A stretch of 64,000 nt of DNA from Umbilicaria muhlenbergii (taxonomy: Eukaryota > Ascomycota > Lecanoromycetes > Umbilicariales > Umbilicariaceae): positions 930,001 to 994,000 of the forward strand of contig KK106986.1 in NCBI GenBank assembly GCA_000611775.1. The letters are read 5' to 3'. Made by a program: the position numbers and the translations under genes. Below are positions 5,630-40,019 of this stretch, piece by piece; the first letter of the stretch is position 1; each line of letters opens with the position of its first letter. The notes below the pieces were generated by a model. The model searched no databases. It worked only from the letters and a program-made list of their open reading frames with translations, and was not told the DNA's origin.

Positions 5630-5915
5630 GGTGATGGATGGATCGGGGGGTGGGTCTGATGGTTGAGATTGTTGTGGCTGACGGTGCTGGTGTGATGGAT
5701 CATGGGCTGTTGCGGCCGGGAATATCTTTTGCCTCAGTCACTCAGACCCCCCTGCCTCGGCTAGGACTAGCCGGGCCCTAATGCCCTTTGGGATTAGCTA
5801 CAAACGCTGACTACGTGCGTTTTTCAGGGAGGGTCTGAGGGCGTAATCTTGAAAACAAGCCAGAAAACGCTTCACGTCACGGTAAACACGCTCAACAGAA
5901 ACTGCTTCACGTTGA
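5630..5915. promoter_or_regulatory. RPN12 upstream region and left edge of the repeat island
   Basis: From the RPN12 start codon the sequence keeps ordinary CpG content until about 5,912 and then loses it almost completely. The first ~200 bp probably include the RPN12 promoter. Confidence 0.45.
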
Positions 5916-8900
5916 ATCCTTCACCTGTCTATCACTGATGACATGGAAGTGTCAACAACATCATTATAATTATATATTTATATGTGAAGTTGACTATATA
6001 GCACCTGCTCTATTGAACCTTGCTGTCAGATTTGAGATTGCACATGCTGTTGTTGAGTTATTCCTTGTGAGAGTGTGTCTCCTCAATATTGTTGAAAAAC
6101 CCTGACTCAGTATCTTTAAAATTAAATGATCACACTGGCTCAAAGTTCCTTCAGCGTCTCTCATATCTTTAAGCAACCTCTGAGTCAACTTGCAAGCAAA
6201 TACTTAACATCAGTCTTGTCATATATGTTATAGGTTCACTGTCTCATACCTGATGACTTTTCACATCAACTTAAGATGAAAACAAACTTCTTCAAAGCAT
6301 CTGCAGTTGTTCACAAGTGATGTGATGAAGATGATGAAGACAATGTTGAATGAAACATCAGATGATGTCTTATGAATAGACAATGAAAGTGTTCTTGAGG
6401 GTGTTGCAACATTGCTGATTTCAAGTGACATCACAGAGGGAATGAAGGAACAGAATGAACATATTCATCATCATGTGATAAAGATGTTTGAACATAGCCT
6501 GAAACTCATGCAGTTGCAGATTATTCAATCACTGATGTACAATCAAACAGACATGATTCTCATTGTCAAGATGAAGTTTAACAAGAGCATTGTCTTTCAA
6601 GTGACACCCTTGATTGAGACAGATCAATCATACATATCACTGATAATAATGCTGCTGTCATTGCTTGAGGAGGAGCAAGCTGAGAAGCTTAAACATCTGC
6701 TTAATGTGAAGTTAATTATTCTCAATGATGAGATCAATAATAAAAGAACATGTGCAGTCATCAGTGTTGAAGATTATACTCATGATTAACTCTTGTCACT
6801 TTATCAAAGGTGATTGAATTAACACTTATATAATCTTTGTCAGTTCTGAGATTGCAGTGTTAAAGTAATTTAAAAAAAATGTACTTCATGCACCTTCCTT
6901 TCAGGCAGACTTAATTCTGATAATAATTAATGAACTACATCTTGTCAGTGAATGAGGAAATTTTCAGCCTGAATATCAAAATCTGCATATACTTCACAGT
7001 TAAATTTCTTCACATGTACTCATCTTAAAAATCTCTGCAACATTGAATGCAAAGACTCTGCAGGAAGTCAAGCATCACATTGAGTTTCATGATGATATTA
7101 TTATTCATTAAACATTCATTGACTGTTTTAAGATCTTCATGACTACAGATCATCTTGAGCACTCTTAAAAGATCATGCTGAATTTAAAGTTTTTACTTTC
7201 AGTAACAGTCATCAGTCCTCTTGATATCTCAAAGATAATAATGTACATGAATGAGATTAAGCTCATTCAGCAGGCTATTGAGCTGTTTCAGTGATGAATG
7301 AAAAAACTTAAATATTCATCAGAGGCTTTAAAATGAGTATGATTGATCTTCTCACACATGATTGTTAATGATAAGAGAAAGATATCTGATGAATTCTGAA
7401 AATTAAATTCTGAATGTATCAAATGTTGCATAATAATAATCATGAACGCTTATGATCTAAGGGTTGATAACTCAGACTGTACATGAGTTATACAGTGATT
7501 GTTGCCCTCAAGTATGCAGGTGTTGTATCAATGAATGAGTTAAACTGTCTGAAATGAAGTAGATTGCAGTGACTTTCTTTTATTATATTTGAATTAATGT
7601 GATGAAAAAGATCCTTTCACTGCAGTCAAGGTCAGTGACAAAAGGAATGCTGAGTGAAGAAAGAATATAACCTCAGGTTTATTCACTCTGCTGAACTTCA
7701 GAACATGTATGCATCAAAGTAATCTTGCATTCTTTAATGATGTGACTTATCAAGATTCAACAGTGATTAAGTTTATATCAGAGTGATGCTGCACAGTCTG
7801 TCATCCTCAGCACAAGATTAATAAAATGATGATGATCTCTTTCAACAGTGATGTTAAGGATTCCTTGAAAGAGTCTTATTAATGAGGTAAACTGTTAAAA
7901 TGATGTAAACAGAAGGCAAAGAGTCTTTTCTGCAGTTTTTTCTTTCATCTGCAGTTTACTGTTGTTATGTCAAATTCACTCCTAAGCAACATTGTTAAAT
8001 ACAGAAATTGTATCAACAATTTAAGCACTCTGCAGAGATGAGAGAGTGCAGATGTGAAGAAGTTACATGACTGAGAGAAAGTTGTAATCATTATTGTTGC
8101 TTCAACTCAGCTGAATTTTGAGGCAAAGGATTCATCAGCATTCAAAGCATGAACAGATAATAATGATTGAAAAAGAAAGAAAAGAAAGCTGAGCTCTGAC
8201 TTCACTGATCAAGAACATCAAAAGAAAGCTTGAAAAATTTTAAAAAAGTTTAAAAAATCATCTCAATGAAATGACTGCACACTGAATCCTGTTAAAAAGC
8301 CTGTTAAGAAGCAGACTCAAGTCAATCAATTATAAAAACAAAGTAATTCATGAATATTATCTTTTTTAAACATCATTGATGAGTTCATTCTTAATATGTT
8401 TCTGCTGTCTTTTTTATAATTATTTTAATCATTTTAAGCTCTGTCATCTCAATCTCTGTCATCTCAAGCTCTGTCATTTCAATCTTCATCATCTTAATCT
8501 TCATTATCTCAACCTTCATCATCTTAATCTTCATCATCTCAATCTTCATCATCTCAATCTTCATCATCTCAACCTTCATCATCTCAATCTTCATCATCTT
8601 AATTCTCATCATCTCAGATGCCTTCACTGCCTCTGTTGCTTTCACTTTCATCATTTAGACCTCAAAGTGAGAAATTTATAAAGAGTCAACATACAGTCAG
8701 AGATTCTTCAAGCATTGCATGATGTAGATTTCAATTAAACATTGTACATGCAACATCAGTTCTGAAGGCTGTTGTTGACAGTAATTGACAATCAACTGCA
8801 CTGAGAGAACAGAATTTAAATTTATCATCATCTTCTTTTAATTGAAAGAGAAAGGCTCTTGCTCATTTCAATAATAATGCATGATTTAAATCAATTCAAA

Positions 8901-10024
8901 TTCTTTAAAGGCTGCAAGAGAGTTTAATGTAATTATTAAATACTCATTTAACAGCTTTTTCACTATATTTTTAATATTCTCATCATCTCAGTCAGAGCTG
9001 TTTTAAGCCTCTGCATTATATGTTGCAATGTTCTCATTTAAATGTAGAAGGCCCTCATTCCTTAAATTTATAACATCATAATTAATAAAGTGCTCATGAT
9101 TAATGCTCAAAGATGACTGTGTCAGCATTCTTGTCATGAAGAGAATATCCTCAGAGGCACTTTTAAATGAGTGTTCACTTGATTGTCATGAACTGAAGGT
9201 TGTCTTTATGTCATGCTTTAATCTCTGAAAATAAGGTTCATTCAACACACATTGCTCAAGGAGCTTCTCACTTTTTAAGGTAAATAATGATCATTCACTT
9301 CAAAAGAACTTCATAATGTTATTATGAAGCTTAAGGAGTTAATCTGTCTTAAATGTGTAATCATGATTATGATCATTAAGATGAAGATTAACAAGACTGT
9401 TGACAAGAATGATCTGTTGTAATTTAACACTGAATGCATCACTGTCAGTGATGTGTAACTGTTGAATAAATTCTCATGCATATTGAACCTTCTCAGCAGT
9501 TTTGAATTAAAACATGATGCAGCACTTCTGTAAAGCTCAGTGAAGAAGTTCAATGTCTGCATGCTTAATGATGTAAGACAGAAGCATGTAGACCTTCACA
9601 TGATTACAAAACTGAACATGATTCTGTCAGTGATCATTCAACATGCTTTTTTCAGTCATACTCATCAGATCTGAGTGAAATGCCTCATATAATCTGTTCA
9701 GCTGATTATTTCATGTCAGTCAGGTATGCTCTCACAGTCATGTCAGTCTTTTGAACTTTGAATCAACAGCAACTGAATCACGCTGCATTGTCAACATAAA
9801 AACCTCATTCACACAGGTGTAATAGCTGTGAAGGATAAGATTTTTAAGTGCTTAAAACTTATTCAACTTCATAACCTCAGACTGATCTCATTTGTTCACT
9901 GCATATTGTAAAGTTAACTGATTGAGTGAAGAGTTAACACCTCAGTGAGCTTTATGTATCAGTTGTAACATGTTGAGTTGAAAATGTCATAAATTAAGAC
10001 CTGAAAGTAATCAACTCATCTTAT
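5915..10024 (+). pseudogene. Decayed RecQ-type helicase gene/repeat, part 1
   Basis: Short frames on the plus strand carry the order of motifs of the RecQ-like helicases repeated in many fungal genomes. At 6,412-6,789 there is KEQNEHI...QLQIIQSLMYNQTDMILI, a worn Walker A (VKMKFNKS, 6,565-6,588) and SLLEEEQAEKLKHL. A worn motif II (NELHLVSE, from 6,929) lies in another frame, so at least one frameshift is present. Motif V/VI-like sequence (NAYDLRVDNSDCT) lies at about 7,440-7,550, then a Cys-rich tail (CCTVCHP, about 7,785). A Ser/Gln-coding 15-bp repeat follows. Many CGA-to-TGA-type stops are visible. A related known class is the telomere-linked RecQ helicases, but nothing here shows telomere proximity. 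It is dead as a gene. Confidence 0.7.
8440..8625 (+). repeat. 15-bp tandem repeat coding Ser/Gln-rich tail
   Basis: About ten units close to TCTTCATCATCTCAA. In the frame of the helicase relic they would read SSSQ-type low complexity; the 101-residue Leu/His-rich frame over the same place is an out-of-frame shadow. Confidence 0.75.
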
Positions 10025-10327
10025 TGTCAGGGCCATCATATATATAGTACAACAGTATGACACTATGATACAACACTATGATATGACACTATAGTATGAC
10101 ACTATGATATGACACTATAACTTAAATATGATGACTCAGCGCCTAGCGCCTTGACATCAAGTGAAAACTCTTCACAAGGAGGTGCAGAAACCTGCTTTCT
10201 CAGTGATCAGTTTTGCCATCAAATAAAAGATGTATAATCATTGCATTGACCTCATCATGACTATATTGCTTATGACACTCTGTTCAAACACCACTATGAC
10301 ACTCTGTTGTACACTCATCCCCTTACA
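10025..10327 (+). repeat. Solo LTR of gypsy family 1
   Basis: It begins TGTCAGGGCC and ends CCCCTTACA, matching the LTRs of the two longer family-1 copies, and is flanked on both sides by CTTAT (10,020-10,024 and 10,328-10,332). It is about 303 bp because the TATGACACTA-like motif near its start is locally expanded. No internal region remains, so it is the footprint of an element lost by LTR-LTR recombination. Confidence 0.92.
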
Positions 10328-10815
10328 CTTATCAAATGATAATTCTGCGGTTGAGTGTTGAATACTGATAACAGAGTGCATTCACTTAACAGTCTTCAGA
10401 TCTTCAAACATCAATTGTAAATTAATGCAGAATTGAGTATCCTCTATCTGATAATTTAATTGATTTAGAAAGATGTTTTTCAGTATTATTATATTGTTGA
10501 TGATGATGCTCTTGTTCATCATGACTGATTGAAGAGGGTATGAGATGATTTATCTCATGATGATAAGCTCAACCTGCAGCATGATTGTCATTCAGAATTG
10601 TGATGAAATGACAGTGTCAGAGCATGTTGCATACAATAACTTTATTATCACTTCAAGGAAATACTTCTTAATCTGTTTATCAAGTTAGCATTGTTCATGA
10701 TGTTTGAATAAGAGGTGAATCATATCAGATGATATGTATAATCTTGTGATAATTTCTTTAAGACATTCATTGCTTGCAAAGAAATATGCAGTTTTCACAT
10801 GCTTTATAATAATTC
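10328..10815 (+). pseudogene. Decayed helicase repeat, part 2
   Basis: CpG-depleted host sequence between the solo LTR and the minus-strand gypsy element. It reads on from the part-1 relic and probably corresponds to the poorly conserved C-terminal region of such helicases. The AATTC at 10,811-10,815 is one half of the target duplication of the next insertion. Confidence 0.45.
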
Positions 10816-11096
10816 TGTAAGGGGGTGAGTGTACGACAGTTGTTGTATAAGAGTTGAACAGAGTGTTGTAAGCAATATAGTCATGATGAGGTCAATGCAA
10901 TGATTATACATCTTTTATTCAGTGGCAAAACTGATCATTGAGGAAGCAGGTTTCTGAATCTCCTTGTGAAGAGTTTTACTTGATGTCAAGGCGCTAGGCG
11001 CTGAGTCATCATATTTATATAATGTCATACTATAGTGTTGTATTATAATGTCATATTAGTGTTGTATTGTCATACTATTATATGATGATCTTGACA
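10816..11096 (-). repeat. 3' LTR of gypsy family 1 copy 1
   Basis: On the plus strand it begins TGTAAGGGGGTG and ends GATCTTGACA; the terminal TGT..ACA is typical. It keeps the GGCGCTAGGCGCT motif although nearly all other CpG are gone. Confidence 0.92.
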
Positions 11097-11579
11097 CAGC
11101 ATTCTCCTTCTCATGATGCCGTCTCTAGAGCCAACTGACCGCTCATAAACTTCATTATGACGTCATAACAGTTGAGGTTGTAGGGTGAGTGCACAGGACT
11201 GCATTAAAGTAAGACTGATTACATGCCCTCACTTAATTGTGATGATATCACGCTGGCAGTAAGCTTTCTTCATAACATAAACATCAAAAATCATAATGTT
11301 TACTGTAAGTTCAAAATGCTCCTTCTTTTGTGTTTCTTCTTCATCATTTCTATTATGACATGTCATCATACTTCTCATGACTTTTTCACAGCTTGTTGAG
11401 TGACTTGATGACTTCATGATGTCATCTCTCATTGCAGAGGTGTTCACCTCATGAAGGAAGCATCATGAAGCTTGCAGCTCATGTTTCATTTATGATGTCA
11501 TACTTCCTGTCATACCTCATATGAATGCTAACATGATATATAAGCAATCAATACTTGAACTCTTGAACTCATGATCATG

Positions 11580-12110
11580 AACAATGATGAAGACTCACCT
11601 TCATCAGGGAAGCTCATTGAGCTTTGAGCTCAGTGTGATGAGAAGGGCTCTGAGTCAGAGTCAGTGAGCAGAACTGTGATGATCAACATCTTTAAAAAGA
11701 GATGAGGAAACAGAGTGATAAAACTGACTATTCAGCACCTGAAGAGAATTAAGTGTTTACCTTTAAATAATGTCTCTGACAGTGATTTCTGCTCTGTGTG
11801 ATGTCATGATGATACCTCACTGCCGGCTCATGTGCAGCAGGCTCATCATCATGAGCATGTGATTTAAGAGAATCTCAGTCACATGTTGTCAAGTACTGCT
11901 CACTGTGACTCTTGTATAAGAGTTGAAGTTGATCACTGCTTTGTGTCAGACAGAGGAGCCTGCATGTGTTGCATATCTCTCTGCAATCCTCATGAGTAAT
12001 GCATGACAGAGTCTCTGATCATCACTGCTCTTGACTCTGAGAGCTCTGATGTTGTTGTCTCAGCACGTGTTTATGATGATCAGAGGAGTGATGACACACT
12101 GTAAGTCTGT
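11580..12110 (+). other. Antisense Cys-rich frame in the gypsy 3' region (copy 1)
   Basis: On the strand opposite to gag-pol, between chromodomain and 3' LTR, lies a protein-like stretch starting near NNDEDSPSSGKLI and containing an SESES acidic patch. At about 11.9-12.0 kb it has closely spaced Cys residues (AHCDSCIRVEVDHC, then GACTCCISLC). The same stretch is in copy 2. A gt/ag pair around 12,101-12,140 looks like an intron. Function unknown; the Cys spacing suggests metal binding. Confidence 0.55.
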
Positions 12111-12799
12111 CTTCCTCAATCCTCTTTTGTTTTGTTTAGTATGACAAAGTGTCATACTTTATGTCATACTTTTGTCGTACTTTATGTCATACTTTTGCAT
12201 TGTTAACTAGTCATAGCATTTAATGATTGATCATCAGATTCTCATGTTGTTGTCTTTTATCAGTCATTATCAGCATCCTTTACACCCCCTGCAGCTGCTC
12301 CTCAACATGAGTCTCATGACATTCATAATGAGGTGATTAATGTTAATTCAATAATCTTAAGAAGCTCATTCAAGCTCTTGTTGTCTTGTTAAAGAACACT
12401 GCTCACGCTCTTCACATTCTTAATGCTCATCAATCTCATCATCATCAAGAGTATATCAAACTCTGTGAGCAGCATCATGTTGAGGAGATGAGGTCAAAGA
12501 CTTCATCAAATAATGAAGAAGAGTTTAAGATGATGAAAGACAAGTAAATAAATGAGAGTGACTTGATGCAGCACTGATGAGAAGTTGAGTGCAAGGTGTT
12601 GATCTCAAGTTCATTTTAATCTTCAGACCTGAAATGAAATATTTCTGCACTTGAGTGTTTTTTGATTCTCTGCAATGTGACACATCTGCTATAATGTAAT
12701 TCATGTAATAATTTTATTATAAATTCTGTTGTAGCATTGTAGCTCCTGTTGTATTCTTGTTGTAAAGCACTGACTCTGTCATAAAAGATCAGGTTAACA

Positions 12800-12910
12800 A
12801 AACTGACAAAGTTTTCAATTCTTAAGACTCATGACTTTTGTGACAGCTTTCTTAAGACTCATGACTTTTGTGACAGCTTTCTTAAGGCTCATGACTTTTG
12901 CAACAGCTTA
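12800..12910 (-). repeat. ~31-bp tandem repeat in copy 1
   Basis: Three units containing TTAAGACTCATGACTTTTGT follow the chromodomain region. The same place in copy 2 has a different, longer unit. Confidence 0.8.
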
Positions 12911-15900
12911 TCAATAAAAATTGAAGAATCAAATAATACAACTCAACTGAATTTCAGTTTATCAGAGTTGTCAGCATGAAATTTTCACATTTTTGCCTTT
13001 ACATTGTGAATGAAGTGTGTTGATTTTCATGTGTCATCTCACACCTGATCTGTCAGCTTTCATTTAATGAGGTATTGAAGCCTGCTGTTATGAACATGAT
13101 TATTCACAATTATCTTGACTTCTCACTCATCATCTTAATTAAGTAGTAGGTCTTTTCCTGTCAATGCAGAAGACACATGATGTGTGTCTTGAAATGACTT
13201 CAATAGAGTGATGTTGAATACATTATAGATGTTTTAATCCTCTGAGAGGTCAAGTTCATATGATGATTGACTTATCACACATCATATCATGAATGAGCTG
13301 AGCTTTTTTCAATGCATTTTCTTCATCTGTTTGTTCACTGACACATTTTTTTCATTAATCAGTACTAAATCACCTTCTTTGAATGTTATCTCTGTTCAGC
13401 GCTGATTATAATAGTTTGCATAAATATAATTAAAATATAATAACTGCTTATAAGATGTTGCAATTTGATCTTGAAGCTGCTGTGCATCTGCATAAGATCT
13501 TATTTGTTCATGTAAGTGTTGTATAAGTGATCTACTTAAGCTCATCTGAGGGTCTCATTTTAAGTTAAACTGAAAGGGGCTCTTTCCTGTAGCAGCATGT
13601 ATGAAGTTGTTGTATGAGAACTTCATGTAAGGTAAAAGCTTGACTCAGTTCTCTTGCTGCTCATTAATGAATATGTGTAAATACACCTTCAGAGACTGAT
13701 TCTGCCTCTTCATTTGATCATCAGTTTGCAGGTGAAAAGCTGTTGACATGTTACAACAGCATCACATGTGAAAGCAGAAGTTGATTCATTGCTTTAATGT
13801 AAAAAGCTTGTCTCTGTCTGTGATTAAGACTTTTGATACATCATGATGCTTGATAATGTCCTGAATAAACACTTCAATGAAGTCAGCAATTGACATTGTC
13901 TTCTGTACAGGAATATAATGAGCCATTTTAATCAACTTATTGATTACAATGAGGATTGAATCTCATGTCATACTTTCATATGTGCTGCTCAGTGGCAGGT
14001 TCATAATGAAGTTCATTGTCACTATATGTCATGACACTTCTGAGACTGATAATGAGTTTAATAACTTGTATGATTTGTGATGAGCTGACTTCATCTTTTG
14101 ACATTCAACACAGTCATGACAGTAACATCATACATCTCTGACAGTGTTAAGTCAGTTATAAGATCACTGCATTAATTCTGTAATTCTTGACTTCCTGAAA
14201 TGACCTGCAAAAACATCATCATGAAATCAACTGATCATCACATTGTGAAGAGCAGAGTTCTGTGAAATGTAGATTTTATCATCATAATGTATGACATCAT
14301 TTATTTCTTGTCAACATTTTCATATATCTGACAGTATAAATGCTATATTTGACTGCATCTCTGATGTCATGATCATCTCAGGGTTCATGTTTATATTCAT
14401 ATTTATCATCTTAAACTCAGTCAAGTTGTTTTTATCCTCAAGAGGAGTAGTTAATCCCTGTCATACTCATCATATTAAATCATCTTTCAACTGCTCAGTA
14501 TGAATTGCATGTTTAAGTTGTTTGATAAACATTCTTATATAAGTTGTTATCTCCTCACCTATTGATGAGTGAGTAGACATGAGTTGAAGTGCTTTAATAA
14601 TGTCAGCAGAAGCACTATCCTCAATTTAAAGATTAATAAGAATGTGACTTGCATCATTATTCATAATTGCAGTGTTTGCTGAGTTATCCTTGATTGAGTG
14701 CTGCTGAGGCTTTGCATATTTAAGCTCTTTTATTCAGTCACGGCTTGCTTCTTGAGCATGTAGGTCACAGACTGCTGATGTTTCAGTTGTATCATCAACT
14801 TCAATATTCATTGTATTGATATATTCATCACGGCTTGCTTCTTGAGCATGTAGGTCACGGACTGCTGATGTTTCAATCATGTCATCAGCTTCAGTATTCA
14901 TCATATTAACATATTCATCACAGCTTGCTTCTTCTTGAGTAGATAAGTTTCACATCATTGATGTTCTGATGAGACTGTCATCTTCAGTAATCATCATACT
15001 GAGTAAGTGATGCACTGCTGATGTTTTAATGATATCACTGACTTCATCTGACATGACATTCTCATCATTTTCATTACAGCTTGCTTCTTTTTAAGCAGGT
15101 AGATTTCACACTGCTGATGTTTTAATGAGACTGTCATCTTCAGTGTTCATCATACTGGTAATATTCATTGTGACAGGTACAACATTCTCTTGTTATAACT
15201 TCTGTCATACTGAGCGTCTTGACTGCAGTGTCATTGTGACAAGTGCATATAATTTCTTCTGCACTGACTTATAGTCCTTGCTTCCTAAATGAAAGGACTG
15301 TTGCATTATTTCAGCAGCAGTTGAGGTATTGACAGCCTTCAGCAGTTCATAATTAAGTTGTTTTAACAGATCATCAGCAGAGTTCTTCTTGCCCTCTTGA
15401 TATGTGACTTTAAAGTCATACTCAGTGAGCTTTTCAGCTCACTTGAGCTGCCTTCATGTGAGGTTTGAGGTAGTCATAAATCAAACAAGGTTTGCATGAT
15501 CAGTCAATATGATGATCAGGTAAATAGAACCTAAACAGTAATGTCATCAATGATGCATGACTTTCATGATGACAAGGAACTCTTGCTCATCTGTATTATA
15601 TCAAGTCTCAGTATTTAGCAGCTTTTTATTGTAGTAAGCAATTAATAATCAGTGCAATTGACTGTTGACCTTGAAGTGTTGTGTCAAGATTTCATCAATT
15701 GTGAATTCAGAGACGTTCATTTCAACCCTCATGAGTTTGTTTTCATTGAAGTAATGTAGTAATAAAGCACTCATGAAGGTCTTCTTCAAAGCATTAAACA
15801 CTTTCAATGCAGCTCCTGAAAGTGAAAAAGAGATAAGTATGATGTTTTCTTGTTGTAGCTCTCCTCTGACTTGTGAGCTGCATGTTGAATAACTTGTGTT

Positions 15901-18900: not shown

Positions 18901-18947
18901 TTTGCTTTCAACATGACCGTTCACCTGAAGGTGCTGAGTGATCAGTA

Positions 18948-19228
18948 TGTAAAAGAGTGAGTGTATGACAGTCATCATATAGAAGTTGAACAGGGTGTTG
19001 TAGGCAATATAATCATGATGAGGTCAATGCAATGATTATATGTCTTTTATTCAGTGACAAAATTGATCACTGAGGAAGCAGGTTTCTGAACTTCCTTGTG
19101 AAAAGTTTTACTTGATGTCAAGGCGCTAGGCGCTGAGTCATCATATTTATATAATGTCATACTATAGTGTCATATTATAATGTCATACTAGTGTTGTACT
19201 GTCATACTATTATATGATGGCCCTGACA
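18948..19228 (-). repeat. 5' LTR of gypsy family 1 copy 1
   Basis: On the plus strand it begins TGTAAAAGAGTG and ends GGCCCTGACA. It is the same length as its partner at 10,816-11,096. It is immediately followed by AATTC, the target duplication. Confidence 0.92.
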
Positions 19229-19233
19229 AATTC

Positions 19234-20301: not shown

Positions 20302-20309
20302 CTGTTGAC

Positions 20310-28670: not shown

Positions 28671-28949
28671 ATGAATATTATCAGTACAATGAACACTGAA
28701 GATGACAGTCTCATTGAAACATCAGTGATGCAGAACCTATCTGCTCAAGAAGAAATAAATCATGATGAATATGTCAATATGATGAATACTGAAGCTGATG
28801 ATACAACTGAAACATCAGCAGTTCATGACCTACATGCTCAAGTAGCAAGTCATGATGAATGTATCAGTATGATGAATACTGAAGCTGATGATACAACTGA
28901 AACATCAGCAGTCCATGATCTACATGCTCAAGAAGCAAGCCGTGACTGA
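28671..28949 (+). repeat. Tandem 30-residue acidic repeats within gypsy polyprotein
   Basis: Three units of about 90 bp coding MNTEADDTTETSAVHDLHAQ-like peptides lie between RNase H and integrase. The counterpart in copy 1 is at about 14.73-15.18 kb on the minus strand. Confidence 0.85.
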
Positions 28950-30756: not shown

Positions 30757-30912
30757 CTTCAAGATTGATTGAGAAGCTGTCACAAAAGTCATGAGCCTTA
30801 AGATGTGACCCTTCAAGATTGATTGAGAAGCTGTCACAAAAGTCATGAGCCTTAAGATGTGACCCTTTGAGATTGATTAAGAAGCTGTCACAAAAGCTGT
30901 GAGCCTTAAGAA
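30757..30912 (+). repeat. ~54-bp tandem repeat in copy 2
   Basis: Nearly three units containing GATTGATTGAGAAGCTGTCA and AAAGTCATGAGCCTTAAGA lie after the chromodomain. The same locus in copy 1 has a ~31-bp unit. Confidence 0.85.
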
Positions 30913-31660
30913 TTGAAAACTTTGTCAGCTTTGTTAACCTGATCTTTTATGACAGAGCCTGTGCTCTACAACAAGTATGACAGAGGCTATGACATTATGA
31001 TGCTACAACAGGATCTGTAATAGAATTACTGCATGAACTACATTATAGCAGACGTGTCACATTGCAGAGAATCAGAGAACACTCAAGCGCAGAAGCATTT
31101 CATTTCAAGTCTGAAGATCAAAGTGAACCTGAGGTCAACACCTTGCACTCAACTCCTCATCAGTGTTGTGTCAAGTCACTCTCATTTATCTACTTGTCTT
31201 TCATCATCTTAAACTCTTCTTCATTGTTTGATGAAACCTCTGACCTCATCTCCTCAACGTGGTGCTGCTCACAGAGTTTGATATACTCTTGATGATGATG
31301 AGATTGATGAGCATTAAGGATGCAGAGAGCGTGAGCAGTGCTCTTTAATAAGACAGCAAGGGCCTGAATGAGCTCCTCAAGACTACTGAATTAACATTAA
31401 TCACCTCATTATGAATGCCGTGAGACTCACGTTGAGGAGTGACTGCAGGGGGCGTGAAGAGTGCTGATAATGACTGATAAGAGATGACAGCATGAGGATC
31501 TGATGATCAGTCATTGAATGCTATGACTAATTAGCAATGCAAAAGTACGACATAAAGTATGACAAAAGTATGACACTTTGTCATATTAAACAAAACAAAA
31601 GAGGATTGAGGAAGGCAGACTTATGATGTGCTGTCACCCCTCTGACCACCATAAACGCAG

Positions 31661-32666
31661 CCCGCTCAAAAATAAGGTTTTAGTTAATAGTACTTTATGC
31701 GCTCAGAGCACTCTCTGAGCAGTAAATGAGCTCATACAAATCTTACACTTTAAATAACTATTATACCTTTATGAATAATAAAAAACTTTTTATTGAAAAG
31801 TTTTAGATCTCTTTATTCTGTACACTTTACAAACTAAAAATTTCTTTATAAGTTTTAATTTACAATAGTTATGAATTAAAAAACTTTTAACTAATTATAA
31901 ATATATTAGCATATTGAATAACTATTGCGCTTTTATACTTATGATAGAACTTTCAGTTTATAAGTTGTAGAGAATAAGCTGTTTAAGAGTTTTCTTATAC
32001 AAAGTTTCTTTTTATGTGTTCTTGTTGTTGAGTTATTCAAAAAGTCATTAAAAGTCAGTTTATTAATGTTGTGATTTTCATCACTGAAAGTTATATCATA
32101 AGTATAAAAGCGCAATAGTTATTCAAAGTATGTGACTTTTTTTAAAAGATTTCTCGCTATTGAAAACTTGAATTAAATATAACTTAACAACAACAGCAGT
32201 TATAAAGAAACTTTTAATTTAACATTAATAAAAAATACTATTCTTTATAACTTATGCATTGAAAGTTTCTTCATATCTGTTGAAGTGCAAAAGTTATTAA
32301 AGTGTGTAAATTTTTAAGTGATGAAAATCTTGAACTTCTTTAAATATTCAGAACTCAACACTTATACAGTGCTTTCAGACTCAACAAATCATGATTTTTT
32401 ATCGCAGAAAAGTGAATTTTAGCAAAAGTTTACTTATTATAAATTTTACTGTTATTATAACACTGCGTGTGTACTTGTTTAAACAATTGTTTTAATAATT
32501 ATTTTTTTATCACAAAATTTTGATGTTCCGCTCAAGATTTAAGGTTGAGCTCAAAGCACTCAAAGGGTGCTAAGAGCGGCTGTTAGCTGAGACATGAGAT
32601 CAGAAGCTCAGAGCACTCAAAGTGTTAAAAACTAACTCAGAGCTAACTTGCTAAATTGCTGATGCA
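31661..32666 (+). mobile_element. AT-rich ~1-kb inserted element, copy P
   Basis: Compared with copy 1 of the same gypsy family, which reads straight through this place, copy 2 has about 1 kb of extra, strongly AT-rich DNA. It starts near CCGCTCAAAAATAAGG. Imperfect inverted subterminal motifs (ACTTTATGCGCTCAGAGC on the left, its inverted relative near 32,600-32,630) and a large internal palindrome built on TTGAATAACTATTGCGC suggest a MITE-like DNA element. A target duplication is not clear; GCAG-ending flanks are similar on both sides. No coding capacity is seen. Confidence 0.65.
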
Positions 32667-33160
32667 GGACAACAACATCAGAGCTCTCAGAGTCAAGAGC
32701 AGTGATGATCAGAGGCTCTGCTGTGCATTGCTCATGAGGATTGCAGAGAGATATGCAACATGTGCAGGCTCCTCTGTCTGACACAAAGCAGTGATCAACT
32801 TCAACTCTTATACAAGAGTCACAGTGAGCAGTACCTGACAACATGTGACTGAGGTTCTCTCAAATCACACGCTCATGATGATGAGCCTGCTGCACGCAAG
32901 CCGGCAGTGAGGTATTGTCATGACATCACACAGAGCAGGAACTGCTGCTGAAGACATCACTTAAAGGTAGATGCCTGACTCTCTTCAAGTGCTGAACAGT
33001 CAGTTTTATCACTCTGTTTCCTCATCTCTTTCTGGAGGTGTTGATCATCACAGTTTCACTCACTGACTCTGACTCAGAGCCCTCCTCATCACACTGAGCC
33101 TGAAGATCAACGGGCTTCCCTGATGAAGGTGAGTCTTCACTGTTGTTCACGGCCGTGGGT
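32632..33160 (-). other. Antisense Cys-rich frame in the gypsy 3' region (copy 2)
   Basis: Counterpart of the antisense frame in copy 1. On the minus strand it reads from SEDSPSSGKPV through an SESES patch to the HCDSCIRVEVDHC cluster, then is cut by the AT-rich insertion. Conservation in two copies supports a real former coding region on the strand opposite to gag-pol. Confidence 0.55.
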
Positions 33161-33645
33161 TCAAGAGTTCAAGTATTGATTGCCTATATATCATGTTAGC
33201 ATTCATACATGTATGACAGGAAGTATGACATCACAAGAATGTTGAGTTGTAAGCTGCAAGCTTCATGATGCTTCCTTCATAAGGTGAACACCTCTGCAAT
33301 GAGGATGATGTCATGAAGTCATCAAGTCACTCAATGAGCTGTGAAAAAGCTGTGAGAAGTATGATGACATGTCATAAGAGAGATGATGAAGAAGAAATGC
33401 AAGGGAAGAGTGTTTTGAACCTACAATAAACATTTTGATTTCAATGTTTATGTTAGGAGGAACTTACTGCCAGGCGTGATATCATCACAATTAAGTGAGG
33501 CATGTGATCAGCCTTATTTTAGTGCAGTTTCACATCCCCCTCCTCTACATGGTCAATCACTTATCAGGCCATCATGGTGATGTTTATGATGATGAATTCA
33601 AAGTCAATTGACATCAGGGACGGCGTCATGAGAAGGAGAATGCTG

Positions 33646-33906
33646 TGTCAGGGTCATCATATATATAGTATGACAGTACAACACTATAGTACAACATTAT
33701 ATAGACATGATGACTCAGCGCCTAGCGCCTTGACATCAAGTGAAAACTTTTCACAAGGAGGTTCAGAAACCTGCTTCCTCAGTGATCAGTTTTGCCACTG
33801 AATAAAAGATGTATAATCATTGCATTGACCTCATCATGACTATATTGCTTATGACACTCTGTTCAAACATCACTATGACGCTCTGTTGTACACCCCGCCC
33901 CTTACA
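33646..33906 (+). repeat. 3' LTR of gypsy family 1 copy 2
   Basis: It begins TGTCAGGGTC and ends CCCCTTACA, 261 bp, followed by the target duplication TGATG. Confidence 0.92.
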
Positions 33907-35959
33907 TGATGATGTGTAAATTCTCAAAGATGACACATTATATTTCAGTCAGAAAGGACTGAACTGCTGATCAACTCATGAAGACCTTTGTGAGAGAGAT
34001 TGTTAAGCTGCATGAAGTCACTTAAGCTTTAATTTCAGATCATGAATCTGTTTTTACCTCATGACTCTGAGTCAACTTGATGTTCATGTTGAAGATTAAC
34101 TGTTAATTGAGCATTGCCTTTCATCTGCAAACTGATGAGCAGATTAAATAACAAAATAACATGCTGAAACAGTACCTGTGAAGCTATGTCAATTATCAAC
34201 AGGACAATTGAGCCTCATTTTTAACATTAACTGAGTTCATGTACAACATGAGCTTACACTCTTCTACTGAAAAGACATCATTTGAGATCATCTATGACTT
34301 CATACTTAGATCAGATATACTCACTGCAGAGGAACTCATGAAGTACTCTGCAGTTAAAGAAATTATCACTGAAGTTGAGCAGCTTGTGAAGCATTTTCAC
34401 AAGATTTGAATAAAAGTCTGCAGAGCTCTTGTGAAGTCTCAAGAGTATCAAGCTAAGCATTACAATCAGTCTCACCTTGATGTGACTTATAAAGTCAGAC
34501 AGTTAGTCTGATTAAAGGTTAAGAATATAACTCTGAAGCAACTCTCACAAAAGCTGAATTGACAGTGTTATGAACCCTTTCAGATTATAAAGAAGATTAA
34601 GAATGTTGTTTATCAGCTGAAACTACTGAAGGAACTTCACATTCATGATGTGTTTCATGTTAATCTGCTTCATGATCATAAACTGCAGGCAGGTGAGGAT
34701 ACATCAGAGCTTAAATCACTTCACCTCATGAAGAACTCAGCTGAAAGGGAGTGAAAGATTAAGATTATAACAACCTCATAAATTGTGATCAGCCCTGAGG
34801 ATAAACCTGTTTTACAATATCACATTGTGTGAAAGAAATTCTCAGAGATTACTTAAGAGCCTGTGAATAACATCTGCAACTTCAAGAAATTAATTAAGAA
34901 GTTTCATGAGAACTTTCCTGAGACTTCATGAGTCATAATCAATGTCAGTACATGTTCATGAGGGAACTGAGCAAAGAGTTAAAATCTCTTCTGCTCATCA
35001 GAGCATTAAGCTATCAGAGGACTGAAAGTGAAATCACTTCATGAAGTCTGAAGACTCATGAAGAGATGAGTCATGCTGACTTCAGCCTGTTGAGGTTTAT
35101 TAATTCTTAACATCATGAAGAGGTCTGACTCAGAGTTAAAGTCCTGTGAGAGATAATCCTCACAGGAGCTGATATTTACCTTCAGAAGAACTTGAACATC
35201 TTAATCATCATCAGTTTGTCACAGTGATATTTCCCTTCAGTGAAGCCTGTGAGTCTTCACCTTCACAGAGGTGTTGAGTTTAAGCAGCAGCTGCAGCAGC
35301 TTTGTGAGCTTTACTTACTCAGCATTTCTTCTGCTTGCGCGCCTTGCGCGCCTCCTTGTGACCCTCAGGGTCAGGGTTGACCGGGGGTGAAGACAGAGGC
35401 AGAGGTGAACTCAGTTCTCATGAGGGAAATGATGAGGCTGAGGGTAATGAAGATGAAGCTGTGAACAGTTAACAAAAGCGCTTCATGAAAATATATCATA
35501 AAGTCATACAGAGGAAGATGCAGGCCTTGCTGATGTGCTGATGACATTTCATGCACTTGATGATGTGAGGGGAGAGGAAACAACTCTTAAAATGATTGAG
35601 GTCATGACCTGCAGCAGCAGCAACACATGACTCATAAGTCTGAGAGAGAATGTCCTCAGTCTTCACAATTATTATCATGAAGGTCAGTCATGAAGTGTTC
35701 TCATGAAAAGTGATTGTGAAAGTCACTTACAGATCACTTCATGATCTTGTTCACAGTCAGTGAGCTGAACAAGCTGCTGTGAGATGACACAGTCATAAAG
35801 CTGAGCCTCTCTGTGAAGGGCTACCTCATGAAAGGTTTAATTGCAAGGGGCTGAGTCAGAGGCCTGCATGAACAGAGGAAACAAATGAGAATCACAGACA
35901 GTTTGCCTGAGGATGTTGATGATGTGATCAGTGTGAAGCATGATGAGCTGTACTGCTGT

Positions 35960-36045
35960 TAGCAAAAAGGCATCATGAAGGCAAGCATCATGAAGGCAAG
36001 CATCATGAAGGCAAGCATCATGAAGATAAGCATCATGAGGGCAAA
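35960..36045 (+). repeat. 15-bp tandem repeat
   Basis: Four to five units of GCATCATGAAGGCAA lie in the 3' region of the family-2 gypsy element. Confidence 0.85.
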
Positions 36046-36488
36046 ACATTACAAGAGACATTACAAGAATCATGATCATGAACTTACCTGATGAGGGGTG
36101 AAAGATTGAAGTTGTGAAGGTTGCTGACAGTGAAAACTCTGACCTTATGATCTGCGTGAGTCATTCATGAGGCTTGGCAAAGTGAATCTGAATGACCTCA
36201 TGAACAGCTGAACAGGCTCACAAATGAGCAACAATCATCATAAACACTGAGTCAGTGTATAAATCAATCATAACTTCATAAACATCTTGTGAAGGGAGAC
36301 TCTTTTTCTCACTGAGTTTTAATGAGCTCCACAACATATTTTTTTATGATTTTAAATTTTTTTTTTTGACCTACAGGGTCATTTTTTTAACTGTTACTGA
36401 TGCATTGTGAAGTGCTTCTCAGTGAAGGCTTGCAACTGTGAACATCATCATACTCATGAGGGCATGAGCCTTTGAAGGGGGGGGGCAA

Positions 36489-36944
36489 TGTGAGCATTCA
36501 GTGTACAGAACTCATCAGGTGCTAGTTTAGAATAAAAAAGATTATACTTAACAACAGCACAGCCTTGTGAAGGTAACTTTTACTAGTGAATCAACCTCAT
36601 GAGAGAGCTCAGCCAATAAACATCACTTTTCAACACTTCATGAAAGTGATTAAAGAAGTTAACATCATTGATGACACCTCATGAAGATGTGATTCAGCAA
36701 TGAACACCTCATGAAGGCAGTTTCACTGAGGTGACTGCTTCATGAGACCTTCCTCAGGCAGGCTAACTTCAGAAGAGATATATTATGAGGTTAAAACATG
36801 TCTCACTTTCTTTCTTAACAATAATTCTCTACTTATTAGCAATATCATACTATTGTGAACCACTCACTATAAGCTTAAGTCATTATTGTCACATAGCTTC
36901 ATAATTCCTTAGTTAAGATATTACCTCACGGTAGTACGCTTACA
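36489..36944 (+). repeat. 3' LTR of gypsy family 2
   Basis: It starts TGTGAG immediately after a polypurine tract (GAAGGGGGGGGG, 36,474-36,485) and ends CTTACA, giving matched inverted ends. Its last 244 bp match the truncated 5' LTR. Confidence 0.75.
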
Positions 36945-38070
36945 GTATCACTTGAGTTATTAAACTTAAAAAGCTACAGTTGACTAACATAACACAAGAT
37001 CACAAACTCATCATCATGAGATTTTTAATCATGAATTTTTAAAGCATCTGATAAGTGTTGAGTCATCTGTTGACTTGAAGGGGGGGTTAAAGAATGAGGT
37101 TATCAATATGCTTAAAGCACAGTCAATGTCATGAGAAATGTGACACTGACTAATTCTAGCAGCAGCTGAACAACTAGCTGAACTGAATGATGCATTCATG
37201 ATTAACTGACGTCAAATTGAGAGGATTTTGAAGAGCACTGAACTGAAGTAATGCTGATCAAAACATTGAGGAGTATGAGGATGATAATATAAGCTGATAA
37301 TTGAGTTAAATAAATGTATATGAGCCTCATCAATTTCATCTCTTACCTTTTCAGGATGTTATGTCACTTCAGAGTGCATATTCATTAATGCATAAAATCA
37401 TGCATTCTGCTTTTTCCTGTTACTTCATCTAATTACTTCACCTCACAACATTGTCAGTATTTTCATATTCATTAATGCATAAAATCATGCATCCTGCTTT
37501 TCTTTGTTACTTCATCTAATTACTTCACCTCACAACACTGTCAACATTTTCAACAAATGCAGTCAACATTCTCAACAAATCCCTCATCATTAATAGCATG
37601 TCATGAAAATCTCATCTATCATTGAAAAGCAATTCTTATCATTTACAAAATTTAAACATTCAATTCTACATCCTATTTCAAGACATCATCTCACAATATG
37701 TCAACTTTAAAGAAGAATTCTCACATCTTATCTCATGATCTGCAGAATGTTTTTAATGTCATTGACATTAATGCATCCTGTTATGTTGTGAGGATTAATC
37801 ACCTGCAAATGCATTTCATTCAACACTACGCAAGCCTCACTTGAGCTCATATCAGGCACTCATTGCTGCAAGGCATTATCAAGCTCTCATACACAGAGAA
37901 TCATGTGATGAATGTTGTTGCTGCACTGATGAACCTTGACAATTGAAGCACCTTATGTGAAGAGTTCAAAGAGAGGAAGTCATACAATTCTTGAAATCTT
38001 AATGTAAAGTTAAAGTCACTGAGAGTATTGAAGACAAGATTACAAGGACATCAATGAGTGAAGAATGTGA
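36945..38070. repeat. CpG-depleted repeat with third copy of the 444-bp unit and an 87-bp duplication
   Basis: The first ~200 bp (GTATCACTTGAG onward) match 39,533-39,740, and the start also matches 39,089. A direct duplication of 87 bp lies at about 37,381-37,554 (TTCATTAATGCATAAAATCA repeated). No identifiable gene is present. Confidence 0.6.
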
Positions 38071-38710
38071 TTATTGTTGTTAAGTTATATTTAATTCAAG
38101 TTTTCAATAGCGAAAAATCTTTTAAAAAAAGTCACATACTTTGAATAACTATTGCGCTTTTATACTTATGATATAACTTTCAGTTTATAAGTTGTAGAGA
38201 AGAAGATATTAAACAGTTTTATAACTTAAAGTTTTTTTATAACTGTTGTTGTTAAAAAGTTACATTGATTTCAAACTTTCAGTGATGAAAATCACAACAT
38301 TAATAAACAGACTTTTAATGACTTTTTGAATAACTCAACAACAACAACACATAAAAAGAAACTTTGTATAAGAAAACTCTTAAACAGCTTATTCTCTACA
38401 ACTTATAAACTGAAAGTTATATTATAAGTATAAAAGCACAATAGTTATTCAATATGCTAATATATTTATAATTAGTTAAAAGTTTTTTAATTCATAACTA
38501 TTGTAAATTAAAACTTATAAAGAAATTTTTAGTTTGTAAAGTGTACAGAATAAAGAGATCTAAAACTTTTCAATAAAAAGTTTTTTATTATTCATGAAGG
38601 TATAATAGTTATTTAAAGTGTAAGATTTGTATGAGCTCATTTACTGCTCAGAGAGTGCTCTGAGCGCATAAAGTACTATTAATTAAAACCTTATTTTTGA
38701 GCAGGCTGCC
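38071..38710 (-). mobile_element. AT-rich element, inverted partial copy Q
   Basis: It matches the left ~two thirds of copy P in reverse orientation, ending CCTTATTTTTGAGC next to GGCAGCC-type flank shared with copy P. An internal inverted repeat runs from about 38,140 to 38,455 around TTGAATAACTATTGCGC. Confidence 0.7.
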
Positions 38711-38790
38711 AAGTTGTGAATGAGAAGAATCATGTTTAACTGTTTTCATTAAGTTCAAGGTGAAGAGCAAATCTACTTTTAAAGAATTCA

Positions 38791-39676
38791 TGAACAAGAT
38801 TATCACCCTGAAGTTGAATGACAATGTTATCAACCTTGATGATGACTTTGATAGCAACATCAAGATCATAGCAGGATCATCTGCTCAAAAGCTTTTTATC
38901 ATTATTTTAAAACTGTCACTGCAAATCTTCTTCCTCTTCTTTTCTTCATCTCTTTTCATGAGGGCTCAGCTTCATGCCCTGAGTGTAATTAATGTCACAC
39001 TCAGGACTGATCAGGCCCTCAGTGATGAAAAAGTGTTAATGAGGATTTCTTCCTCAGCTGCAGCACAAGATGTTGAATCAATAAGCAAGTATCACTTGAG
39101 CTATTAAACTTGAGAGGCTACAGTTGATTAACATAACACAGGATCACAAACTCACTGCTGTGAGATTTTTAATCACAGATCCTTGAAGTGACTGATAAGT
39201 GTTGAATCATTCATCAGCTTGAACTGAGAGCTCATGAACAAGATTATCATCTTGAAGTTGAATGACAATGTTATCAACCTCAATGACAGCTCTGATAACA
39301 ATATCAAGATCATAACAGGACTATCTGCTTAAAAGCTCTTCATCATTATCTTAAAATCATCACTGCAAATCTTCTTCTCCTTCTCTCCTTCATTCCTCCT
39401 CACAAGGGCTCAGCTTCATGCCCTGAGTGTAATTAATGTCACACTCAGGACTGATCAGGCCCTCAGTGACAGAAGAATGTCAGTGAGGATTTCTCTCTCA
39501 GCTGCAGCATAAGATGTTGAATTGACAGGCAAGTATCACTTGAGCTACTAAACTTGAAGAGCTACAGTTGACTAACATAACACAGGATTACAAGCTCATC
39601 ATCATGAGATTTTTAATCATGAATCCTTGAAGCGTCTGATAAGTGTTGAGTCATTCATCAGCTTGAATGGAGAGGA
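38791..39676. repeat. Tandem duplication of a ~444-bp unit
   Basis: Two adjacent units share AAGTTGAATGACAATGTTAT, GGGCTCAGCTTCATGCCCTG and GCAAGTATCACTTGAG at a spacing of 443-444 bp (38,791/39,234 and 39,089/39,533). Both are CpG-depleted. A 115-residue frame in the first unit has no recognisable similarity and is closed in the second. Confidence 0.85.
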
Positions 39677-39687
39677 GGAGGGTAAGA

Positions 39688-39727
39688 GTGTCAGTATGTT
39701 TAAAACATTACTCAAACATACTGACAC
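39688..39727. other. Perfect 14-bp inverted repeat (hairpin)
   Basis: Arms GTGTCAGTATGTTT (39,688-39,701) and AAACATACTGACAC (39,714-39,727) with a 12-base loop. The related copy at about 37.1 kb lacks it. Confidence 0.8.
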
Positions 39728-40019
39728 TGACTCTGACGTGACATAAGCGGGGCTTAACTGAACTCAAGGGGGCATTTCTTTTTACAGGAGTTTAAGGACT
39801 TTGCTTTCTCAGGTGTTGAGAGTTGAGGTCAGGTGAAATTAATAATAAAGAATGTAAACCTTTGCAGCTGCTCATATAATGCATTTATGTGACCTGTGAT
39901 TATGATCTAAGCCTATGTTTCTCTGTAGATGACACATATGTTTTTTATTTTATGAGCGTTTAAGTAACTTACGCGTATTTCTCAGATATTCACAGGAGAT
40001 ATATCTGAGCACTGAACTA

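Follow-up and report, generated by a model that had tools for sequence, protein, structure and literature searches.

A C-N-A rule of C-to-T decay, probably RIP-like, in nested transposable elements of Umbilicaria muhlenbergii

Introduction

RIP mutates one strand over long tracts in a single cross and has an identity threshold of about 80%, and the repeats of Coccidioides have lost CpG and gained TpG and CpA. The mutation excess at 5mC is roughly tenfold. In most fungi CpA is described as the preferred RIP target (PMC4352252), and CpG loss with TpG and CpA gain is described for repeats of A. nidulans (MATE; PMC2621366) and Uncinocarpus reesii (PMC4165359). In the Pucciniomycotina (Microbotryum) the mutated C is the one after T, so that TCG becomes TTG (PMC5381629, PMC2621366), and MIP with 5mC deamination is described for the Pezizales Ascobolus and Tuber (PMC4165359). 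Rhizoctonia solani AG8 shows CpG-biased C-to-T mutation with TGA as the primary nonsense product (PMC4014442). Statements on cited papers follow excerpts of them, here and below.

Here we describe a repeat island within a window of 64,000 nucleotides of Umbilicaria muhlenbergii (contig KK106986.1, positions 930,001 to 994,000), in which the loss of C depends both on the next base and on the base two positions downstream.

Results

A CpG-poor island of nested repeats with sharp edges

A sequence-only reading of the window had described CpG as nearly absent, CpA and TpG as plentiful and TpA as not raised between about 5.9 and 40.0 kb, and our counts bear this out. Across 5,915-39,800 the observed/expected ratio (o/e) of CpG is 0.14, compared with 0.80 in the left flank and 0.92 in the right, and both TpG and CpA stand at 1.54; TpA o/e is 0.59 compared with 0.68 and 0.70 in the flanks. 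The counts given for 22,861-22,980 (no CG, 13 CA, 13 TG, 6 TA) are exact. TpA/ApT (0.58 in the island, 0.69 in the flanks) and (CpA+TpG)/(ApC+GpT) (1.71, compared with flank values of 1.21 and 1.28) show no rise of TpA and no depletion of CpA. A raised TpA/ApT with CpA depletion had been named beforehand as evidence against the reading, as had an equal CpG deficit in unique genes; we looked for both, and the island and flank values run the other way. The composite RIP index is about -1.1 in the island, lower than in either flank (-0.5 and -0.6).

The island is made up of an outer repeat (Z), gypsy-type elements of two families and a MITE (Table 1), and every island stretch searched in the genome, from repeat Z, the MITE, family 2 and family 1 copy 2, is multi-copy. 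The family 2 element is split by the nested family 1 copy 2, whose run of N distorts the 26-28 kb rows of the composition profiles. CpG is lowest in the left part of repeat Z (o/e 0.02-0.04 at 6-10 kb); the query for this part started at 5,801, so the left end of the repeat may lie further out.

Table 1. Features of the island and its flanks (window coordinates)
Feature	Position	Strand	Description
Left control flank, gene-bearing	1..5900		Normal CpG, CGA and CCA; GST-like and CSN8/PSMD8/EIF3K-family frames
Outer repeat Z, left part	5801..10060		Few copies in the genome; about 91% alike to those, full or partial, on contigs C3, C2, C4 and C1
Gypsy-type element, family 1, copy 1	10800..19228	-	LTRs 10,800-11,096 and 18,932-19,228, identity 88% (90% over 281 bases in a second comparison); internal stretches 82-93% complementary to copy 2
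Repeat Z, further piece left of MITE	19231..19490		Adjoins the right piece without the MITE in copies on C3, C4 and C1
Dispersed inverted-repeat element (MITE), about 810 bp	19491..20301		Minisatellite core; 8-bp target duplication CTGTTGAC at 19,483-19,490 and 20,302-20,309
Repeat Z, further piece right of MITE	20302..20639		Six other places, 82-92%
Gypsy-type element, family 2	20640..36946	+	Terminal repeats 20,640-20,886 and 36,699-36,946; reverse transcriptase frame 22,845-23,303, containing 22,861-22,980
Gypsy-type element, family 1, copy 2	24639..33913	+	LTRs 24,639-24,912 and 33,640-33,913 (94%); RNase H frame 27,801-28,187; 27,014-27,497 is N
Outer repeat Z, right part	36944..40180		Holds a 444-bp tandem duplication (38,788-39,674)
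Right control flank, gene-bearing	40200..64000		Normal CpG, CGA and CCA; frames with Sel1 repeats, DEAD_2, protein kinase, Cnd1_N and LCAT domains

Composition changes abruptly at both edges. Regular CG stops on the left at 5,910 (next lone CG at 6,155) and regular CCA/TGG at 5,944 (next lone one at 6,136); on the right CG is back at 39,957 and CCA/TGG at 40,061. On either side the decay thus stops some 0.1-0.2 kb short of where the repeat match ends, so there is no sign of spreading into the flanks. Within the island the exception is the insert of about 810 bp at 19,491-20,301, which retains CpG. The signature is not local: of twenty 2-kb stretches sampled from every contig but C6 (six of seven), six carry it, with CpG o/e of 0.00-0.34, and the remaining 14 range from 0.72 to 1.04.

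CpGs were lost separately in different copies, on both strands

We aligned 30 copies of family 1 and 20 of family 2; the LTR pairs of the window itself are too short for context statistics. Nearly all pairwise differences are transitions: 53,662 of 55,094 in family 1 (97.4%) and 32,221 of 34,014 in family 2 (94.7%). Contexts and composition point to C to T as their direction. Sites with CA in some copies and TG in others number 70 in family 1 and 61 in family 2, whereas AC/GT sites number 11 and 4, an excess which indicates that the element still carried these CpGs while it amplified and that their loss came later. At these sites, counting cells that read CA, TG, CG or TA, 80 of 2,084 (family 1) and 49 of 1,204 (family 2) are still CG, and double hits from CG to TA are rare (63 and 27 of the same totals). 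The copies are star-like, with a median residual copy-to-copy correlation of -0.03 and -0.06 and a single pair above 0.4. Had the elements been CpG-poor before they spread, with their copies untouched since, the similar CpG o/e of all 30 family 1 copies (0.04-0.25) would be accounted for, but the 70 and 61 sites require that the source shared by the copies had CG there and that copies were later hit separately; this reading is refuted, and we give it practically no credence.

The strands are affected about equally (CA 978, TG 963), with both states in each of the 30 family 1 copies. An APOBEC-like cytidine deaminase that mutated retroelement cDNA during synthesis would suit a hypermutation of retroelements that is almost wholly C to T, but it is extremely unlikely given this strand balance, and because DNA other than gypsy elements, namely repeat Z in its left part and AT-rich stretches sampled at random, is depleted in the same way. 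We found no strand runs: the strands hit at neighbouring CpG sites are independent of each other (0.521, with 0.520 expected), and a repeat of the test gave 0.507 with 0.501 expected. The absence of strand runs counts against a RIP reading, and equally fits slow site-by-site deamination.

Transversions amount to merely 0.0024 per site in family 1 and 0.0047 in family 2. Because they are so few, CpG loss would have run hundreds of times above the rate that the ordinary Ti/Tv background allows.

The target is C-N-A rather than CpG

The sequence-only reading had taken the decay to be CpG-specific, and this part did not survive. CGA occurs 0.2 times per kb in the island and 35.1 times in the flanks, and CCA 1.9 and 36.9 times. 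The ratio C/(C+T) at CGA, CCA, CTA and CAA, which is 0.51, 0.52, 0.53 and 0.70 in the flanks of the window, is 0.00, 0.02, 0.17 and 0.45 in the island and 0.01, 0.04, 0.18 and 0.38 in six random AT-rich stretches, so CTA and CAA are also partly lost. The idea of a RIP variant or methylation-deamination process aimed at CpG accordingly stands as regards the CpG deficit and falls as regards CpG as the target, since CCA is lost nearly like CGA.

In both families, whatever the +1 base, the mutation rate is highest when A stands at +2. Regression of the non-CpG hits on five neighbours, run per family, gave factors of 3.3 (family 1) and 3.7 (family 2) for A at +2, 3.6 and 3.7 for C at +1, and 0.35 and 0.32 for A at +1. 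CpA is thus the least-hit context in the alignments and in the regression, and the earlier view that this is not CpA-directed RIP holds. At CpG the strand that is hit follows the A at its +2 position: in family 1 A prevails over T by 344:113, over C by 72:17 and over G by 80:9, and in family 2 over T by 122:29 and over C by 84:13. The effect of G at +2 is inconsistent, which counts against the C-N-A reading: at CpG it ranks lowest (9 of 89 against A), but at non-CpG sites it is not weak (factors of 1.10 and 1.27). Effects at -1 and +3 appear in family 2 alone (at -1, G 0.61, C 1.46 and T 1.24); a reading of the strand bias by the 5' base was dropped, the regression yielding no 5' effect common to both families. 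Residual CpGs are scarcest after T or before A, and A at +2 of the hit strand explains both. The fraction of residual CpGs with a 5' T is 0.12 in the six AT-rich stretches (n=46), compared with 0.03 in the island and 0.01 in the family 1 loci.

We also applied mutation rules to the flank sequence and scored the outcome by KL on island trinucleotides, with +1 and +2 weights chosen manually on the basis of the alignments and the overall scale alone scanned, at five values per model. The C-N-A rule (N: G>C>T>A) gave a KL of 0.006 and a GC content of 0.351, compared with 0.356 observed. KL rose to 0.065 in a model without the +2 effect, 0.158 in a CpG-only model and 0.269 in a Neurospora-like model. 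A single C-N-A rule with hand-set weights thus reproduces both the trinucleotides and the GC content of the island. Decay at CpG alone would yield the CpG deficit and the raised TpG and CpA, but under it CCA should climb to 49.2 per kb where there is a fall, and 30,866 of the 55,094 family 1 differences are transitions outside CpG-type columns. The context ratios, the alignments and the simulation together refute it as a full account, and we hold it to be very unlikely.

Stop codons, spared sequences and methyltransferase genes

Stops interrupt 149 of the 150 scored reverse-transcriptase matches (682 TGA, 106 TAA and 15 TAG). Their richness in TGA is as expected, since CGA and TGG both mutate to TGA; the stops are not independent events, because family members share codons. 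The sole stop-free match matches nothing but itself and is unmutated, with a CpG o/e of 0.98. As far as tested, the decay is confined to repeats, as had been proposed from the sequence, since the flanking genes and this self-only reverse transcriptase keep normal CpG.

The MITE keeps CpG, CGA and CCA despite decayed DNA on either side. It is spared though multi-copy, with about 40 scored places and 124 candidates in the genome, and though it exceeds the length threshold of 400 bp quoted for RIP (PMC3828140). It may still be too short, or it may have inserted after the decay, which is conceivable because sibling Z copies have an empty site. In a partial DNMT5 duplicate of about 0.95 kb, 79% alike, hypermutation is not clear (121 transitions, 55 transversions) and the CpG bias is mild, with 20 CpG changes from gene to copy and 9 in reverse. 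The sparing of the MITE and the near-sparing of the DNMT5 duplicate count against a RIP reading.

Candidates emerged for the RID, Dim-2 and Masc1 homologues that the sequence-only reading had proposed to look for. The genome encodes DIM2-like (E 3.8e-173 to 9bap) and DNMT5-like (E 8e-64 and 1.5e-62 to 7r76) genes, so methylation is available as a cause, a point against the RIP reading. A further gene, L002, has a DNA_methylase domain with SPPCQ and EQTSG motifs (judged by eye) and is without a C-terminal extension; by these motifs, which we take to mark the RID/Masc1 family, it is RID/Masc1-like. Masc1/RID homologues with features like these have been described (PMC2432034). Searches of the assembly also turned up UvdE, and no match to 5.8S rRNA.

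Discussion

We consider it probable that the island records RIP-like, repeat-directed C:G-to-T:A hypermutation of nested multi-copy transposable elements, with C-N-A as the target. In the two aligned families mutation of a C is favoured most by a following G, then by C, T and A in that order, and separately by an A at +2. This accounts for the near-total loss of CGA and CCA, the ten- to twentyfold reduction of other CpGs and the partial loss of CTA and CAA. The agent would be a homology-triggered process of the sexual cycle, in the simplest case driven by the RID/Masc1-like methyltransferase homologue encoded here, perhaps aided by DIM2 or DNMT5.

The main rival, which we judge unlikely but well ahead of the other alternatives, is that DIM2 and/or DNMT5 keep repeat heterochromatin methylated while 5mC turns into T at one site after another in the course of many generations. 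The C-N-A rule would then be a sequence preference of the methyltransferase or of T:G mismatch repair. Both genes are encoded, sites were lost independently with no strand runs, and CG-to-TA double hits are rare. Clutterbuck proposed methylation-deamination for fungal CpG sites, as cited in PMC4352252, and CG-biased methylation is reported for Tuber melanosporum and Pseudogymnoascus destructans, both with RID, Dim-2 and DNMT1 or DNMT5 (PMC7862722). However, a CG maintenance enzyme leaves the loss of CCA unexplained, the MITE keeps its CpG between decayed neighbours, and the decay stops inside the matched repeat with no spreading into the flanks. Judged by the transversions, moreover, CpG loss would be hundreds of times ordinary substitution, beyond the roughly tenfold excess at 5mC. 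These points leave room for methylation that coincides with the repeats, as in MIP.

A RIP-like origin can be set against the described systems. Classical RIP of the Neurospora crassa type shares the near-pure C:G-to-T:A transitions on both strands, the hitting of repeats with single-copy DNA spared (here as far as tested) and a RID homologue (here by motifs). It differs in having CpA as its target and TpA as its product, whereas here CpA is least hit, TpA is not raised and the product is TGA/TCA; the composite RIP index here is strongly negative. The CpG-biased RIP of ascomycetes (A. nidulans MATE, U. reesii, Coccidioides) shares the CpG loss with TpG and CpA gain, but is described by dinucleotide preference, and the excerpts of these descriptions mention neither a dependence on A at +2 nor a loss of CCA. 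The C-N-A rule may be present unseen in these ascomycetes; a literature search of partial coverage found no C-N-A or CCA target for RIP.

The TpCpG hypermutation of Microbotryum likewise acts on repeats at a trinucleotide target that includes CpG, but here the C two bases before A is hit, CCA included, and TCGT at three sites became TCAT 79 times and TTGT 9 times, at odds with a change of TCG to TTG. MIP of the Pezizales, as excerpted, is coextensive with repeats, CpG-biased and in keeping with site-by-site loss; here, by contrast, mutation is heavy and CCA is lost as well. R. solani AG8 resembles our case in its CpG-biased C-to-T mutation and TGA stops, but according to the excerpts genes and repeats are affected alike there, whereas the genes examined here are spared.

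We lean, by a narrow margin of belief, towards a C-to-T mutator of RID type that is triggered by homology and follows a C-N-A rule (chiefly CGA and CCA); it would form a class apart from the CpA, CpT and TpCpG forms, make TGA stops from CGA and TGG codons, possibly underlie many ascomycete reports of 'CpG RIP', and score as RIP-negative on standard indices. RIP surveys rely on TpA/ApT and CpA indices, by which this genome would look RIP-free despite six of 20 sampled stretches being affected. The context rule offers a simple test for other genomes, TGA+TCA compared with CGA+TCG+CCA+TGG, and a way to ask whether ascomycete 'CpG RIP' reflects a RIP enzyme or plain CpG methylation decay, since CCA is where they part. 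Should the RID homologue be the agent, enzymes of its family would be able to change their target by more than a single dinucleotide.

Composition and layout of the island

The source genome of the window (C6:930,001-994,000) comprises 34.79 Mb in seven contigs. In 2-kb steps, the CpG observed/expected ratio is 0.75-1.01 in the flanks and drops to 0.02-0.43 between 6 and 40 kb, where TpG and CpA reach 1.25-2.05 and TpA holds steady at 0.50-0.80; the 26-28 kb step is distorted by 484 N bases (27,014-27,497). This profile bears out the sequence-only reading, which had CpG nearly gone, CpA and TpG high and TpA not raised, and its dinucleotide counts at 22,861-22,980 proved exact on recount. Six of 20 2-kb stretches sampled from the genome, lying on six contigs and none on the window's own contig, had GC of 0.30-0.41 and CpG ratios of 0.00-0.34; the other 14 had ratios of 0.72-1.04.

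The island appears to be a nest of repeats, in which two copies of family 1 and one element of family 2 have inserted into an outer repeat, Z. Genome searches gave 239 candidates for family 1 and 106 for family 2 (40 scored for each), and Z recurs as a handful of copies, mostly about 90% alike (e.g. C3:414,226-424,302). Every island stretch searched was multi-copy (5,801-10,060; 19,231-20,639; 22,001-24,000; 26,901-28,901; 33,914-40,600), and the rest was called repeat from repeats within the window. Positions 40,181-40,600, outside the island but part of the last query, had no second match in the genome. The start of the Z query also recurs by itself in 25 match rows (query bases 1-136, 76-98% alike); this short repeat escapes the decay, as the window's stretch at 5,801-5,894 retains 8 CpGs.

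Repeat elements of the island
Feature	Window position	Strand	Length	Remarks
Outer repeat Z	5,801-10,060; 19,231-19,490; 20,302-20,639; 36,944-40,180			from genome matches
Family 1 gypsy-type copy	10,800-19,228	minus		
Family 1 gypsy-type copy 2	24,639-33,913	plus		nested inside family 2
Family 2 gypsy-type element	20,640-36,946			contains family 1 copy 2
MITE	19,491-20,301; other copies L075-L080		~0.72-0.81 kb	TIR TACGCTGCACCATGGGTTGGG, minisatellite core

Mutation in aligned copies

For each family, we aligned those scored places that best matched its copy in the window (family 1, 30 of 40 scored places, 1,404 columns; family 2, 20 of 40, 2,000 columns). Transitions made up 53,662 of 55,094 pairwise differences in family 1 and 32,221 of 34,014 in family 2. 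Dinucleotide sites with TG and CA each in at least two copies numbered 70 and 61, compared to 11 and 4 for the AC/GT control and 34 and 51 for AG/GA, the next highest. This excess indicates that the source element had CG at these sites and that the loss followed its amplification, on different strands in different copies. Transversions amount to only 0.2-0.5% pairwise while nearly all CpG has been lost.

Beyond one pair, the aligned copies show no common history. That pair, family 1 copies L022 (C2:37,685) and L031 (C1:10,523,460), has a common hit pattern (residual correlation 0.8); their distances to contig ends are at most about 40 and 140 kb, and the two are perhaps a copied end segment. 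Per-copy loads at non-CpG sites are overdispersed (standard deviation 11.1 against a binomial 5.7, and 24.0 against 7.5), so doses differed between copies. Strand agreement between neighboring hit sites was random (924 of 1,773, null 0.520; 523 of 1,032, null 0.501). Such independence of hit sites leaves methylation followed by deamination in play as a rival to a RIP-like mutator.

An adenine two bases downstream

The choice of strand at CpG hits depended on the +2 base. In family 1 the winning strand carried A rather than T by 344:113, A rather than C by 72:17 and A rather than G by 80:9; the family 2 values were 122:29 for A against T and 84:13 for A against C. The same effect is seen outside CpG, with T fractions (families 1/2) of 0.82/0.80 at CCA and 0.21/0.29 at CCT, 0.33/0.50 at CTA and 0.04/0.04 at CTC, and 0.11/0.16 at CAA and 0.02/0.02 at CAT. 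There, G at +2 is intermediate (CCG 0.41/0.57, CTG 0.11/0.16), unlike at CpG, where it is weakest. Columns changed in all, or all but one, copies were left out of the counts, which probably makes the values for CCA and CGA too low. A regression on five neighbors gave +1 and +2 effects that were alike in both families, and fitting on one family predicted the other with Spearman correlations of 0.55 and 0.58.

Residual CpGs are preceded by T in 3% of cases in the island, 1% at family 1 loci and 12% in six random AT-rich stretches, compared to 29-30% in gene DNA. Among residual CpGs in all three of the former, the context with the greatest observed/expected value is GCGC, so CpG survival is expected in the two GCGCGCC units that still hold CpG at 35,337-35,352.

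Counted on both strands, CGA stands at 35.1 per kb in the flanks and 0.2 in the island, and CCA at 36.9 and 1.9, while TGA and TCA climb from 34.3 to 98.7. On the plus strand, flank tiles hold 21-46 CGA+TCG and 22-57 CCA+TGG per kb, and island tiles, leaving out two that contain the MITE, 0-2 and 0-8. We simulated mutation rules on flank sequence, with gene DNA standing in for unmutated elements; weights were hand-set in every model (for C-N-A from the alignments, for the Neurospora-like model from general background), and the best of five scales per model was retained. The C-N-A rule, in which the +1 base (G>C>T>A) and A at +2 act separately, gave a KL misfit of 0.006 and a GC of 0.351 against 0.356 observed. 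Misfits were 0.065 for ordered +1 without +2, 0.106 for CpG plus equal CpH, 0.158 for CpG alone and 0.269 for the Neurospora-like model. CpG-only decay is rejected as a full account, since conversion of CCG to CCA would raise CCA, to 49.2 per kb in the simulation. Of the CpG-aimed process proposed from sequence, the CpG loss is real but the target is not CpG alone, as CCA falls and A at +2 counts.

Spared and inactivated elements

The genome search for the MITE, an inverted-repeat element, gave 124 candidates and about 40 scored places. Most copies read are flanked by 8-bp target duplications, so the element is perhaps hAT-type. All seven copies examined (the window's and six others of the roughly 40) keep CpG ratios of 0.68-0.80, whereas the flanks of six of the seven contain no CGA or TCG; the two MITE-holding tiles have 9 and 1 CGA+TCG and 29 and 25 CCA+TGG per kb. 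In sibling Z copies the MITE site is empty. Unless the MITE always came late, its sparing speaks against a process that merely spreads with heterochromatin.

Stops interrupt 149 of 150 scored reverse-transcriptase matches (from 877 candidates): 682 TGA, 106 TAA and 15 TAG, the TGA excess following from CGA to TGA and TGG to TGA (CCA on the opposite strand). The sole stop-free match (L081, G000:C3:3,998,650-3,999,450) matches only itself in the genome and has a CpG ratio of 0.98; its GC of 0.62, against 0.48-0.56 in sampled gene-like stretches, perhaps marks a recent or foreign arrival. Its intact and unique state fits repetition, not gene kind, as the trigger, judged from this one match of the 150 whose copy number was looked at individually. 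Confinement to repeats, as first proposed, is upheld in the DNA covered by this unhit frame and by decay stopping about 0.1-0.2 kb inside matched repeat at both edges of the island (on the left, as measured from the start of the Z query at 5,801). For 5.8S rRNA, 39 scored of 1,116 candidates in the whole assembly gave no match; the rDNA array is missing from the assembly, masked or among the unscored candidates.

Candidate enzymes

Locus L001 matches 9bap (E 3.8e-173), a chain titled just DNA (cytosine-5-)-methyltransferase that we take to be DIM2, and has DNA_methylase and DUF7893 domains, with BAH slightly under cut-off. L003 is classed as DNMT5-like from matches to 7r76 at E 8e-64 and 1.5e-62; that entry bears the name Rad8 and is presumably DNMT5, an identification supported by a passage of PMC7862722. 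A broken-frame partial duplicate of this gene (L004, C1:6,525,876-6,529,178; 79% alike over 0.95 kb) differs by 121 transitions and 55 transversions, with mild CpG bias and no clear hypermutation. L002 ends shortly past its DNA_methylase domain, in which the motifs SPPCQ and EQTSG occur, and has a frame break compatible with one intron. Several Masc1/RID homologues outside Neurospora and kin share this layout, according to a section of PMC2432034. Of the RID, Dim-2 and Masc1 homologues looked for, a DIM2-like candidate (L001) is recovered by its match to 9bap, and a putative RID/Masc1-like gene (L002) by motifs and layout. The presence of DIM2-like and DNMT5-like genes also leaves methylation and deamination in play as a rival.

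The decay of the island looks like the work of a RIP-like process, given how fast CpG was lost relative to transversions, the confinement to repeats, the stops that disable almost every scored reverse transcriptase, and the RID-like gene. Part of PMC10899764 describes a bacterial CG methyltransferase converted in the laboratory to CCA/CCC preference, which places CCA-type specificity within reach of a cytosine methyltransferase. As the effect of A at +2 is common to CpG, CpC, CpT and CpA, one enzyme, or one common step, would mutate C-N-A, rather than a CpG process beside a second one.
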